Source of the DNA: Pseudobdellovibrionaceae bacterium
GTDB taxonomy: Bacteria > Bdellovibrionota > Bdellovibrionia > Bdellovibrionales > Bdellovibrionaceae
Reading direction: 5' to 3'
Assembly: GCA_019637875.1 (NCBI GenBank)
Contig: JAHBUW010000012.1
Span: 62,001 to 126,000, forward strand
DNA length: 64,000 nt
The notes under the pieces were generated by a model. It saw only the letters and a program-made list of their open reading frames with translations, was not told the origin of the DNA and did no database searches. This document shows positions 41,828-47,848 of the stretch, one piece after another (within the stretch, counting starts at the first letter, position 1; each line of letters starts with the position of its first letter). The position numbers and the translations under genes were made by a program.

Positions 41828-42096
41828 GCGGTCCCTTTCGCTAAAGAAGTTCTCAGTTGATGACGGTTCATTGTGGTGGGCGCGCGCTTGGCCAATCAAG
41901 CAAAAACTCCAGTTCCTTCATCGACTTGGATGCGAAGTTTGAAGCGCTTCGCGAGCGCCACTTTTCGGCCCGCGGGCGCGAGTTCGTGTTTCAAGCTGAG
42001 GCGTCTTGAAGTGAGACGTGTAAGCATCTGAAATTACAAACTTTAATTGGAGGCTTGTGGGGCGTCTTGGCGGCGAAAATTGCACCACCGAGGGGT
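41828..42096. other. Divergent intergenic region with a 10-bp palindrome
   Basis: This 269-bp stretch between the fadD and lipoprotein starts shows no gene. It contains the palindrome GAAGCGCTTC (41941-41950) within a longer partly symmetric GC-rich block and an A/T-richer segment at 42025-42045 that may hold the promoter for the lipoprotein gene. Confidence 0.4.
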
Positions 42097-43401
42097 ATGA
42101 AACCGAGCCGCGCGTTTTCCACATTTTGGTTCTTGGGATTGGGGCTTCTGCTCGCTCTCAATACCGGCTGCACGCCGAAGACCGAAATCGCGACACCCGT
42201 CGTGCCCGCGAAGAGCGCAAAAAAGGTGGTCGTGAAGACGCTCCGCCAAGCCGAGATGAAACCCGAAGACAAACAACTCAAAGACTGGGCGATCGAACTG
42301 AAAAAATCGCACGAGATCTTCCGCGAAGTTTGGGCGCACCTTTGGGAAGACCGTTTGCAGAATCCGATGTCGGTTTTCTTCGAGGTCGAGCGACTTCTGC
42401 AAACTCACAAAAATCCCGAGACCGGTCACTTTCAAGCGCGTCGGACCGAATGTCCCGCGAAGGCGAGTGAAGTGGAGTTCCTGCGCGACGCCGCGGGCGC
42501 GATTCAAGGCGGCGTATTTTACCGTTTGCCCTGTCGCGGAACCGAGCTGCTTTCGGGACGCACGGAAATCGCACGTGTGCATAAAAACGGTCGCCGTCAG
42601 ATGTGGAGCTTCGTGAACGAAGCGATGCCGCGCGCGGCGGGACAGAGTATGGCGTTTTTGCGTGAAACCACACGCTGTGTGTCCAGTCTGGATGAACGGT
42701 CGCGGATGACGGCGCTCGAGTGTCAAAACCTGGGGCAAAACCGCGATCTCGAAATGCACATCAACTTCTCGCAGTTCAGATATCAAAAGAATGCGGCCAC
42801 ACTCGTCGAGGTCGAAGGGAAGAAGTTCAAACTCTTGACGACGCCGGTCTGTGACAGTCCGAAGTTCTGTACGACGTTGAAGGTTCCCCTTGCGGGAACG
42901 ATTCAGGTTTTTGACGACACCGTGTCGGAGCAAGTGCGCCAGGAGCGCCTGCAGGCGATGCGCAAAAAGGAACGCGACGAAGAGGCGAAAGAGGCCTTGG
43001 AGCAGCATAAGAAAAACATCGCGGAACTTCAGAAAAATCCCCCGAAGATGGCGCCGGCCCCGGGGAGTCCTACTCCGTCGATGCCGTCCGGAGTGATTCC
43101 GGGGCAGACGTTGGGACACGGTCAGCTTCCTCCCGGCGTGGAGCCTCAATTCGGTGGCGACGCCTTTATCGGGAATGATCAAGCCGGACCGCCGAGCTTC
43201 TCGCCTCGACCCGTCGGTGCCGATGGCATCGCGGTGGACCCCGTCATGGAGTTCGAGCACGGCGAAGCGACGCCCGGCGTGGCGACGCCCGGCCCCCAAA
43301 TCCTTTCCGAGGAAGAGTACAATGCTCGTCTCGGTCAACCTGATGGCGGCGCCCCCGTGGAGCTGCCTCGCGAAGCCCATCACCAACCCATCGAGCGCTA
43401 A
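42097..43401 (+). CDS. Lipoprotein with Pro/Gly-rich tail, unknown function
   Basis: The protein has 434 residues. The lipoprotein signal is FWFLGLGLLLALNTGC (lipidated Cys near 24). Residues 40-280 form a globular domain with cysteines in TECPAKASE, RLPCRGTE, TRCVSSLD, LECQNLGQ, PVCDSPKFC. A Lys/Glu-rich coiled coil follows at about 285-325 (QVRQERLQAMRKKERDEEAK). The tail of over 100 residues is rich in Pro, Gly and acidic residues and is probably disordered. The ATG at 42097 has GAGGGG upstream. It is probably anchored to the outer membrane; no family recognised. Confidence 0.65.
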   Translation: MKPSRAFSTFWFLGLGLLLALNTGCTPKTEIATPVVPAKSAKKVVVKTLRQAEMKPEDKQLKDWAIELKKSHEIFREVWAHLWEDRLQNPMSVFFEVERLLQTHKNPETGHFQARRTECPAKASEVEFLRDAAGAIQGGVFYRLPCRGTELLSGRTEIARVHKNGRRQMWSFVNEAMPRAAGQSMAFLRETTRCVSSLDERSRMTALECQNLGQNRDLEMHINFSQFRYQKNAATLVEVEGKKFKLLTTPVCDSPKFCTTLKVPLAGTIQVFDDTVSEQVRQERLQAMRKKERDEEAKEALEQHKKNIAELQKNPPKMAPAPGSPTPSMPSGVIPGQTLGHGQLPPGVEPQFGGDAFIGNDQAGPPSFSPRPVGADGIAVDPVMEFEHGEATPGVATPGPQILSEEEYNARLGQPDGGAPVELPREAHHQPIER

Positions 43402-43443: not shown

Positions 43444-43500
43444 GACATCCCTATACGTCACGGGGAAGTCGGCTTAATTTTGGGGGTGGAGGCTCACCCC

Positions 43501-44148
43501 ATGGCAAAAAAGAAAAGCGCTTCGAAAAAGACCCGCCCGAAGGCCGCAAAAAAAGCGGTGAAAAAAACCACGAAAAAGAAAAGCGTGCGCAAGGCCGCGA
43601 CGGTGAAGAAAACCGCCAAGAAAAAGGCGGCCCCCGCGAAGGCCGGCAAGGCCATGGCGAAAACATCCGTCGCGAAGCCCGGCTACCGTGGACCCGCGAT
43701 CGGCGCGATGGTTTCGGACTTTGCGCTGCCCGCCACCGGCGGTGAATTCCGTCTCTCCACGCACAAGGGACAAAAGATCGTCCTCTATTTTTATCCGAAA
43801 GACGCGACTCCCGGTTGCACGCTGGAAGGTCACGATTTTTCGAAACTCAAAAATGATTTCGCGGCCGCCGGCGCGGTGGTGATGGGTGTTTCGCGCGACG
43901 ATATGAAGTCGCACGAAAAATTCAAAGCCAAAGAAGGCTACAGCGTCGATCTCATCTCGGACGTGAACGAAGAACTTTGTCAGATCTTCGACGTCATCCA
44001 AGAGAAGAACATGTACGGCAAAAAGGTCTTGGGCGTTGAGCGCAGCACCTTCTTGATCGACGCGGACGGAAAGCTGGCGAAAGAGTGGCGGAAAGTCTCT
44101 GTGCCCGGCCACGCCGCGGAAGTCCTGGAAAGCGTCAAAGCTTTGTGA
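43501..44148 (+). CDS. Peroxiredoxin (Bcp/PrxQ type) with histone-H1-like N-terminal tail
   Basis: The protein has 215 residues. Residues 1-58 consist almost wholly of Lys, Ala, Thr and Ser in repeats such as AKKAVKKTTKKKS and VKKTAKKKAAPAKAGKA, like the tails of bacterial histone-H1-like proteins. Residues 63-215 are a thioredoxin-fold BCP domain: VSDFALPATGGEFRLSTHKG, YFYPKDATPGCTLEGHDFSK with the peroxidatic Cys, and RSTFLIDADGKLAKEWRKV. The resolving Cys five residues after it in E. coli Bcp (GCTTEAC) is replaced (GCTLEGH). The tail could bind DNA, RNA or acidic surfaces and localise peroxide removal. The ATG at 43501 has GGGGTGGAGG upstream. Confidence 0.92.
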   Translation: MAKKKSASKKTRPKAAKKAVKKTTKKKSVRKAATVKKTAKKKAAPAKAGKAMAKTSVAKPGYRGPAIGAMVSDFALPATGGEFRLSTHKGQKIVLYFYPKDATPGCTLEGHDFSKLKNDFAAAGAVVMGVSRDDMKSHEKFKAKEGYSVDLISDVNEELCQIFDVIQEKNMYGKKVLGVERSTFLIDADGKLAKEWRKVSVPGHAAEVLESVKAL

Positions 44149-44155
44149 GTGCCCC

Positions 44156-44794
44156 GTGAGCTGGATCGACATCAGTCCCATCATCAGCGAGCGCCTCGGC
44201 GTTTTCCCCGGAGACACGCGCTTTTCGCGCGAGATTTTGCTCGACTACGCGAAGGGGCACAATCTGCGCTTGTCCGCGGTGAAAACGACGCTGCATCTGG
44301 GAGCGCATGCGGATAGCGTGGGGCACTACCATCGCGATGGCGGGGGCGTGGATCAGCGCGATGTGGGGGCTTACCTCGGAACCTGTCAGGTCGTGCACGT
44401 AAAAACGGGGCAAGGCCGCATTCAGCTCCAAGATGTCGCGGGGCTCGTCGTGAAAGCGCCGCGCGTGCTTTTTCGCACGGACTCGTTCCCGGATCCGGAT
44501 CATTGGAACTCGGATTTTCGCAGCTTCTCTCCGGAGGTGCTGACGTTTTTGGCCGATCACGACGTGAAGCTCGTCGGCATCGATACGCCGAGCGTGGACC
44601 CGGAAGACTCGAAGGCTCTGGAAAGTCACCAGATCCTGCACGCGCGCGGGATGGCGGTCCTGGAAGGACTCGTGCTGACGCAGGTCGGGGAAGGACTTTA
44701 CACGCTGATCGCGCCGCCGCTCTTGATCGAGGGCGCGGACGCGTCCCCCGTGCGGGCGCTTCTGCATCCGCAGGCCGGGCTGATTCCGGAATAA
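44156..44794 (+). CDS. kynB: Cyclase-family metal hydrolase, KynB-like kynurenine formamidase
   Basis: The protein has 212 residues, the KynB length. It contains the cyclase-family metal motif TLHLGAHADSVGHY (H-x-G-x-H-x-D), VVHVKTGQGRI, and LVGIDTPSVDPEDSKALESH, with the SHxxLHxxGM-type segment SHQILHARGMAVLEGL. KynB hydrolyses N-formylkynurenine to kynurenine and formate in tryptophan breakdown. That assignment is supported by the tryptophan 2,3-dioxygenase gene about 2 kb away. It begins with GTG 8 nt after the peroxiredoxin stop. Other cyclase-family hydrolases are possible. Confidence 0.85.
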   Translation: MSWIDISPIISERLGVFPGDTRFSREILLDYAKGHNLRLSAVKTTLHLGAHADSVGHYHRDGGGVDQRDVGAYLGTCQVVHVKTGQGRIQLQDVAGLVVKAPRVLFRTDSFPDPDHWNSDFRSFSPEVLTFLADHDVKLVGIDTPSVDPEDSKALESHQILHARGMAVLEGLVLTQVGEGLYTLIAPPLLIEGADASPVRALLHPQAGLIPE

Positions 44795-46768: not shown

Positions 46769-47848
46769 CTAGTAGTGGAACGACATCCGCTTTTGCAGTT
46801 CGGCGGGGAGTGGCGGGATCTGCGAGCGCGGGATCAGGAAGGTGGCCAGGTTGAAGAGGTCGCCGTAGATTTTGTGCTTTTCGGTGGCCGAGCGCAGATA
46901 GTCGTGGCCCGAGGTGCCGCCGGTGCCGATCTTGCGGCCGAGCATCCGGTGCGCCATCAGCGCGTGTTTGTAGCGCCACTCGGTCATCTTTTCGTCGATG
47001 TTCTGCAGAACCCGCAGCAGGCGGAAGGGTTGTTGCAACGCCGGTTCGTCGCGGTAGATCTGGACGAAGAGGGCGCCCTGCAGGCCCTTCAGGCCCATAC
47101 GGAAGTAGCCCTGCTCTTGCAGCTTCGCGTATTCGGCGGGTTCGAAGATCGAGCGGAAGGTTTTCAGAGACGCTTCGATCTGCGCGCGGGTCCGGGCTTT
47201 GGTTTCGTCGTTCAAGTGGGTCGCGCTGTCCACCAGCTGCAGGTCGCCCACGAGCAGCTTTTCGACCGCTTCGCGGTAGGTCTTCCAGAATTCGAAGTCG
47301 CCGTCTTTCAAGAAGGGCGTGCGCGCGAGCCATTTTTCGACGGCGTCGAAAAGGCTGTCGCCTTCGAGCATCTTCAGCATGCGGGTCTGCTCTTCGGGTT
47401 TCAGGGCCGCGTGGAAGGGCGTGCCGTTGAAGACCAGGCGCTGTTCGCTGCGCAAACCCAAGAGCGTTTCAATGGCGCGCCACTGGAAGCTCTGAAAACC
47501 GCTCGCCGGGAAAAGCGCGTCGCGGAAGTCCATGAAATCGAGCGGCGTCATCGTTTCGAGGACATCGATCTGCTGGTTGATGAGCTTCTGGATCTCGAAA
47601 ATGCGTTCAAGGCGCGCGCAGGCGAGACCCATCTGCGATTCGTGGACGTCTTCGCCACGGAAGATTTCGAGCACGGATTCCAGTTCCCACAGAATCTGGC
47701 GGAACCACAGCTCGTAGGTCTGGTGGACGACGATGAAGAGCATTTCGTCGTGCGCTTTCAGGCCGAACTCGGGGCCGCGCGGAACTTGAGAGCCCAAGAG
47801 CGAGTTCAGTTTCAAATAGTCGTAGTAAGTGACCGCGGGGTACTTCAT
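46769..47848 (-). CDS. kynA: Tryptophan 2,3-dioxygenase
   Basis: The protein has 359 residues. It is a heme enzyme that opens the indole ring of L-tryptophan with O2 to give N-formylkynurenine. Motifs are MLFIVVHQTYELWFRQILWE near the N-terminus (distal His and substrate residues), MTPLDFMDFRDALFPASGFQ, and the substrate/heme region KIGTGGTSGHDYLRSA near residue 320. Several hundred residues of all-helical sequence match family length. Its ATG overlaps the stop of the arginase-like gene upstream, so those two are coupled. With kynB nearby, this makes the first two steps of the kynurenine pathway. Confidence 0.97.
   Translation of the reverse strand: MKYPAVTYYDYLKLNSLLGSQVPRGPEFGLKAHDEMLFIVVHQTYELWFRQILWELESVLEIFRGEDVHESQMGLACARLERIFEIQKLINQQIDVLETMTPLDFMDFRDALFPASGFQSFQWRAIETLLGLRSEQRLVFNGTPFHAALKPEEQTRMLKMLEGDSLFDAVEKWLARTPFLKDGDFEFWKTYREAVEKLLVGDLQLVDSATHLNDETKARTRAQIEASLKTFRSIFEPAEYAKLQEQGYFRMGLKGLQGALFVQIYRDEPALQQPFRLLRVLQNIDEKMTEWRYKHALMAHRMLGRKIGTGGTSGHDYLRSATEKHKIYGDLFNLATFLIPRSQIPPLPAELQKRMSFHY

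Follow-up and report, generated by a model that had tools for sequence, protein, structure and literature searches.

The tailed peroxiredoxin gene and its neighbors

The window, by which we mean the whole 64,000-nucleotide stretch analyzed, carries on its plus strand a bcp/prxQ-type peroxiredoxin gene (43501..44148) with an open frame of 215 amino acids plus stop. Residues 1–62 (43501..43686) form a Lys/Ala-rich tail, predicted to be disordered, and residues 67–215 (43699..44145) a PrxQ/BCP catalytic domain recognized by PF00578, by its match to PDB entry 5enu and in a structure model. An earlier note on this DNA had described a Lys/Ala-rich N-terminus ahead of a Bcp domain, and this layout is real, with the tail set at 62 residues.

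Upstream on the same strand is a lipoprotein-like gene (42055..43401) without a family match; a recurrent family of neighbors occurs upstream of bcp in relatives, and the window gene was not placed in it. Downstream, a kynB-like arylformamidase (44156..44794, plus strand) begins 7 nt past the bcp stop. It scores 184 bits against TIGR03035, under the curated cut-off of 223 bits, and by this score appears to be a divergent member of that family. The arylformamidase frame also opens at or just past the bcp stop in six relatives (L005, L012, L016, L017, L026, and L030), and in several other relatives a tryptophan dioxygenase lies downstream on the opposite strand. As a side observation, bcp with an adjoining arylformamidase (43501–44794 in the window) and a tryptophan dioxygenase nearby (46769–47848) is a grouping shared by at least two families of the order; the loci listed for it are the six above together with L003, L014, L015, L024, and L027. 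Bcp and kynurenine metabolism may be connected.

The tail is very probably translated. A strong Shine-Dalgarno (SD) motif, GGAGG (43488..43492, plus strand), stands 8 nt 5' of its ATG. A mature protein without the tail, arising by translation from the in-frame ATG at residue 52 or by proteolysis of the tail, is very improbable: the ATG at residue 52 has no SD motif, and many relatives have no start codon at the junction of tail and domain. Among tailed relatives, SD-like motifs precede 49 of the 53 chosen tail starts; because these starts were picked from SD-preceded codons, the less biased figure is the count inside the tails, where only 3 of 130 start-like codons have an SD motif. The earlier note had named use of a start past the tail as something that would overturn its reading, and on this SD evidence such a start is unlikely and was rejected. 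Within the tail, dN/dS could be computed for five close pairs, with values of 0.09, 0.17, 0.29, 0.57, and 0.68; three further pairs were saturated at synonymous sites.

A PrxQ/BCP domain with two cysteines

Residues 67–193 match PF00578 (AhpC-TSA; 3.4e-31), and residues 67–215 match 5enu, the nearest solved fold, at 4.8e-52 and 56% identity. In an AlphaFold2 model based on 35 homologues, the catalytic core has a pLDDT of about 85–98, for the most part 91–98; Foldseek matches the model to 5enu at 1.2e-24, and the core superposes with a TM of 0.95 on the target. Residues 63–215 have a pI of 6.5. Scores for two curated equivalogs fall below their cut-offs (NF053650, 135.5 of 260 bits; NF006960, 101.2 of 140), which places the protein, as judged by these models, as a PrxQ/BCP homologue outside both.

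The peroxidatic cysteine is C106 (codon 43816..43818, plus strand), located in the motif FYPKDATPGC and invariant in all 170 homologues (90 relatives and 80 loci from an outside search). P99, T103, P104, and G105 are invariant as well, and the protein combines the AhpC-TSA fold with the PxxxTxxC active site. The sole other cysteine, C160 (codon 43978..43980, plus strand), is nearly invariant, being kept in 87 of 90 relatives and 79 of 80 outside-search homologues. The E. coli-type (alpha-2) resolving position of 2-Cys PrxQ, five residues after C106, is occupied by His111, and the Xanthomonas-type alpha-3 position by Lys142; some relatives have a cysteine near the latter (143, 145, or 146), which the window protein lacks. 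The absence of the usual nearby resolving cysteine, also pointed out in the earlier note, is borne out, yet it is ordinary: the alpha-2 cysteine is present in just one of 90 relatives and four of 80 outside-search homologues, so its absence (89/90 and 76/80) is the norm for this BCP subgroup.

Known 1-Cys-type BCP/PrxQ proteins, namely 5enu from B. ambifaria, the B. cenocepacia BCP (itself of the 1-Cys type), and Xanthomonas PrxQ, have the same fold and active site and likewise no alpha-2 resolving cysteine, although Xanthomonas PrxQ has its alpha-3 Cys84 where the window protein has Lys142. The 5enu chain is 161 residues long and is matched from its residue 13, so unlike the window protein it has no long tail. 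For the B. cenocepacia enzyme, work cited in PMC6590489 gives thioredoxin as a reductant, with glutathione working better. The gene would yield a soluble 1-Cys-type PrxQ/BCP thiol peroxidase. Reduction of H2O2 or organic peroxides would fall to C106, and thioredoxin or a low-molecular thiol would then regenerate it.

Here an ordinary enzyme comes in a new architectural form. We found no description of a tailed peroxiredoxin in the open PMC subset and no curated family for it in the Pfam and NCBIfam libraries; within these sources, the earlier statement that no standard family has this arrangement holds.

Composition and distribution of the tail

Residues 1–62 contain 23 Lys, 2 Arg, 15 Ala, and no Asp or Glu, giving a pI of 11.6. 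In the AlphaFold2 model the tail has a pLDDT of 53–61, residues 1–60 have no secondary structure, and neither a helix nor a hydrophobic stretch is predicted. The tail is thus long, Lys/Ala-rich, acid-free, and disordered, as are those of AlgP, PhaF, and H1-like proteins, and these first ~62 residues would be translated into a disordered polycation similar in kind to histone H1, AlgP, and PhaF. Pooled tails of relatives (3386 residues) consist of 34% Lys, 15% Ala, 21% Ser+Thr, and 2% acidic residues, with almost no aromatics. The tails measure about 25–156 aa, and composition is kept while sequence is not, a pattern expected of a disordered segment under selection for charge. Exchanges between Lys and Glu and between Lys and Arg number 6 and 15, respectively, which is a modest bias.

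To describe distribution, best matches were taken from 100 genomes in the family and order to which this bacterium belongs, 89 of which had a definable start, and a protein counted as tailed when its tail was 25 aa or longer and contained 20% Lys or more. Tailed orthologues make up 53 of the 89, and two more look tailed by eye: L025, with slightly under 20% Lys, and L058, for which the script chose too early a start. In a phylum-wide draw, alignments extend into the tail in other families as well, and the three loci read directly (L223, L226, and L227) confirmed this. The 53 orthologues and these three from other families mean that the tail is not a one-off. A tail as a general feature of close homologues elsewhere is not supported; nearly all loci from outside Bdellovibrionota among the 80 of the outside search are tail-less. 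The long tails in that set belong to the Bdellovibrionota records L095 and L101; L096 has a tail of 22 aa, and L111, from Nevskiaceae, has a 22-aa AKAKAK stretch.

In one genus, probably Bdellovibrio, none of the 19 genomes has the tail, and 5–12 residues stand in its place; these genomes are mostly near-complete (3.0–4.1 Mb). Other scattered relatives are also tail-less, so the tail is dispensable in evolution. On the tree, tail presence requires at least 14 state changes by parsimony, four of them forced by well-supported branches, and the topology would fit a single ancient gain followed by repeated loss as well as it would fit multiple gains.

Such turnover, together with the variable length and unconserved sequence, is what one would see if the tail were a weakly constrained low-complexity extension, lengthened and shortened by codon-repeat slippage and having no specific partner, perhaps with an effect on solubility or expression. 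The pair L013/L022, with a tail pN of about 0.4 against 0.03 for the core, fits this picture too. We consider it improbable, as the tails stay cationic and poor in acidic residues over many genera, no computable pair gives a tail dN/dS of 1 or more, and Lys-rich N-terminal tails are rare in the genome sample. That sample covered 464 kb of this genome, made up of 400 kb of further stretches and the window. In it, a Lys-rich, acid-free segment that was clearly N-terminal and preceded by an SD motif occurred in no protein except the window Bcp; the other match was a Lys/Ala-rich internal linker of Lon, just ahead of the C-terminal domain PF05362 (L228:5750). Rarity in 464 kb combined with recurrence in many genera indicates that the tail is not due to chance. 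The sample gives no support to the tail as a proteome-wide trait.

Similar tails in the genome and possible targets

HMMER-based searches for tails were probably blunted by composition bias, so no census was drawn from them. A whole-genome search for proteins starting with MAKKK returned the Bcp gene, a Ku protein, a DUF5655 protein, a short-tailed lumazine synthase (L250), and a 27-aa peptide, the remaining matches having no tails. The bacterial Ku (PF02735, 1.9e-41; L256, C21:34846) has the N-terminal tail MAKKKTTKKAAKKTRSRKTTKSGK. Also encoded in the same genome are a SWIB-domain protein (PF02201; L287, C16:71152) whose Lys/Ala N-terminal tail starts MAKAKKKATKKAATKKAAPKK, with a similarly tailed SWIB protein in genome G079 (L274), and a HIT hydrolase (L092/L174, C11:131335) that opens with the Lys/Ala tail MAKKRAAKKTVKK. 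The HIT tail is found across the family (L174–L203), and in the genus with tail-less Bcp, 16 of the 18 HIT loci read have kept it.

Separately, we observed a mini-gene of 19–33 aa, of MAKKKATKKK type and essentially MAKKKATKKKATKKKATKKK, with an AGGAGG SD motif upstream (L249/L304, at C2:324901 of the same genome; L270, L278, and L293–L322). A T-run often follows within about 60 nt and looked terminator-like in the three cases read. The mini-gene is common throughout the order: its pattern occurs in 34 of 60 genomes with no control matches, and 27 of 30 fetched loci encode the mini-peptide, for which no description was found. Its product is possibly a tiny H1-like protein.

A tethering role for the tail of the peroxidase, whether to the nucleoid or to polyphosphate or membrane, was put forward in the earlier note; it is plausible and has indirect support, in that the tail occurs across much of the phylum, is constrained in composition and acid-free, and has counterparts of similar style on Ku and SWIB proteins of the same genome. 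The most likely arrangement is an electrostatic hold, independent of sequence, by which the tail keeps the enzyme on the nucleoid; its partner there would be DNA, or possibly RNA or polyphosphate bound to DNA. We give about even odds (roughly 0.5) to this reading of the protein as a nucleoid- or polyanion-tethered peroxidase, in which binding is inferred from sequence. The company of Ku and SWIB favors nucleic acid, and a SWIB protein of Waddlia binds along the whole chromosome (PMC6426960). The tails on the HIT hydrolase and lumazine synthase, which have no obvious DNA role, do not favor DNA and count against a DNA tether, and other targets are possible.

The main rival is that the tail directs the enzyme to polyphosphate granules or another polyanion (ribosome/RNA or anionic membrane) instead of DNA, which we judge unlikely. 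AlgP and the phasin PhaF resemble the window protein in fusing a polycationic Lys/Ala/Pro tail to a functional domain, although theirs are C-terminal KPAA repeats on non-enzymes, while here an N-terminal, Pro-poorer tail is joined to an enzyme. They bind DNA and position polyphosphate or PHA granules; AlgP associates with polyphosphate granules, whose spacing requires its KPAA domain (PMC9239181). The genome encodes PPK1 (PF02503, 1.3e-58), making polyphosphate a possible target, and the HIT tail persists where Bcp has none. Set against this, Ku and SWIB, expected DNA or chromatin proteins, have the same style of N-terminal tail in the same genome, and the prediction gives the Bcp tail neither a helix nor a hydrophobic stretch.

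A nucleoid or polyanion tether is favored because there is precedent for a BCP-like peroxidase located with DNA. Yeast Dot5/nTPx (2a4v; fold match 5.6e-13) is a nuclear thiol peroxidase of this kind, and it also carries a basic N-terminal extension. It differs in belonging to a eukaryotic nucleus, in its atypical 2-Cys chemistry, and in sequence (26% identity), and we do not claim homology of the tails. Together with Tsa1, Dot5 synergistically counters gross chromosomal rearrangements (PMC2688748). In Thermococcus, the 1-Cys peroxiredoxin TkPrx is reported to bind and protect DNA (PMC4416765); it is of Prx6 type, its DNA binding is set by oligomeric or oxidation state, and no Lys tail was seen in its description there.

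More tentatively, the Lys/Ala N-terminal tail may be an interchangeable nucleoid address label in Bdellovibrionota, placed on peroxidase, nucleotide hydrolase, Ku, and SWIB proteins and also existing alone as the 19–33-aa mini-protein; we regard this as possible, if doubtful. If true, it would imply a chromatin layer of H1-like type that includes an antioxidant tethered to DNA. The phylum is already known for true histones (PMC10627809), and the tailed Bcp would add to its unusual chromatin picture.

If the tail binds DNA, a peroxiredoxin would be physically placed on bacterial chromatin, and the value of local peroxide scavenging for DNA would become testable; one phylum offers a natural contrast, with one genus tail-less and most of its relatives tailed. 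Tethering would raise peroxide-scavenging capacity beside DNA, with a benefit that is uncertain because H2O2 diffuses freely. An uninformative search for an Fe-dependent repressor found none. The genome also encodes two Dps-like proteins, so that DNA protection would not rest on the tailed Bcp alone.
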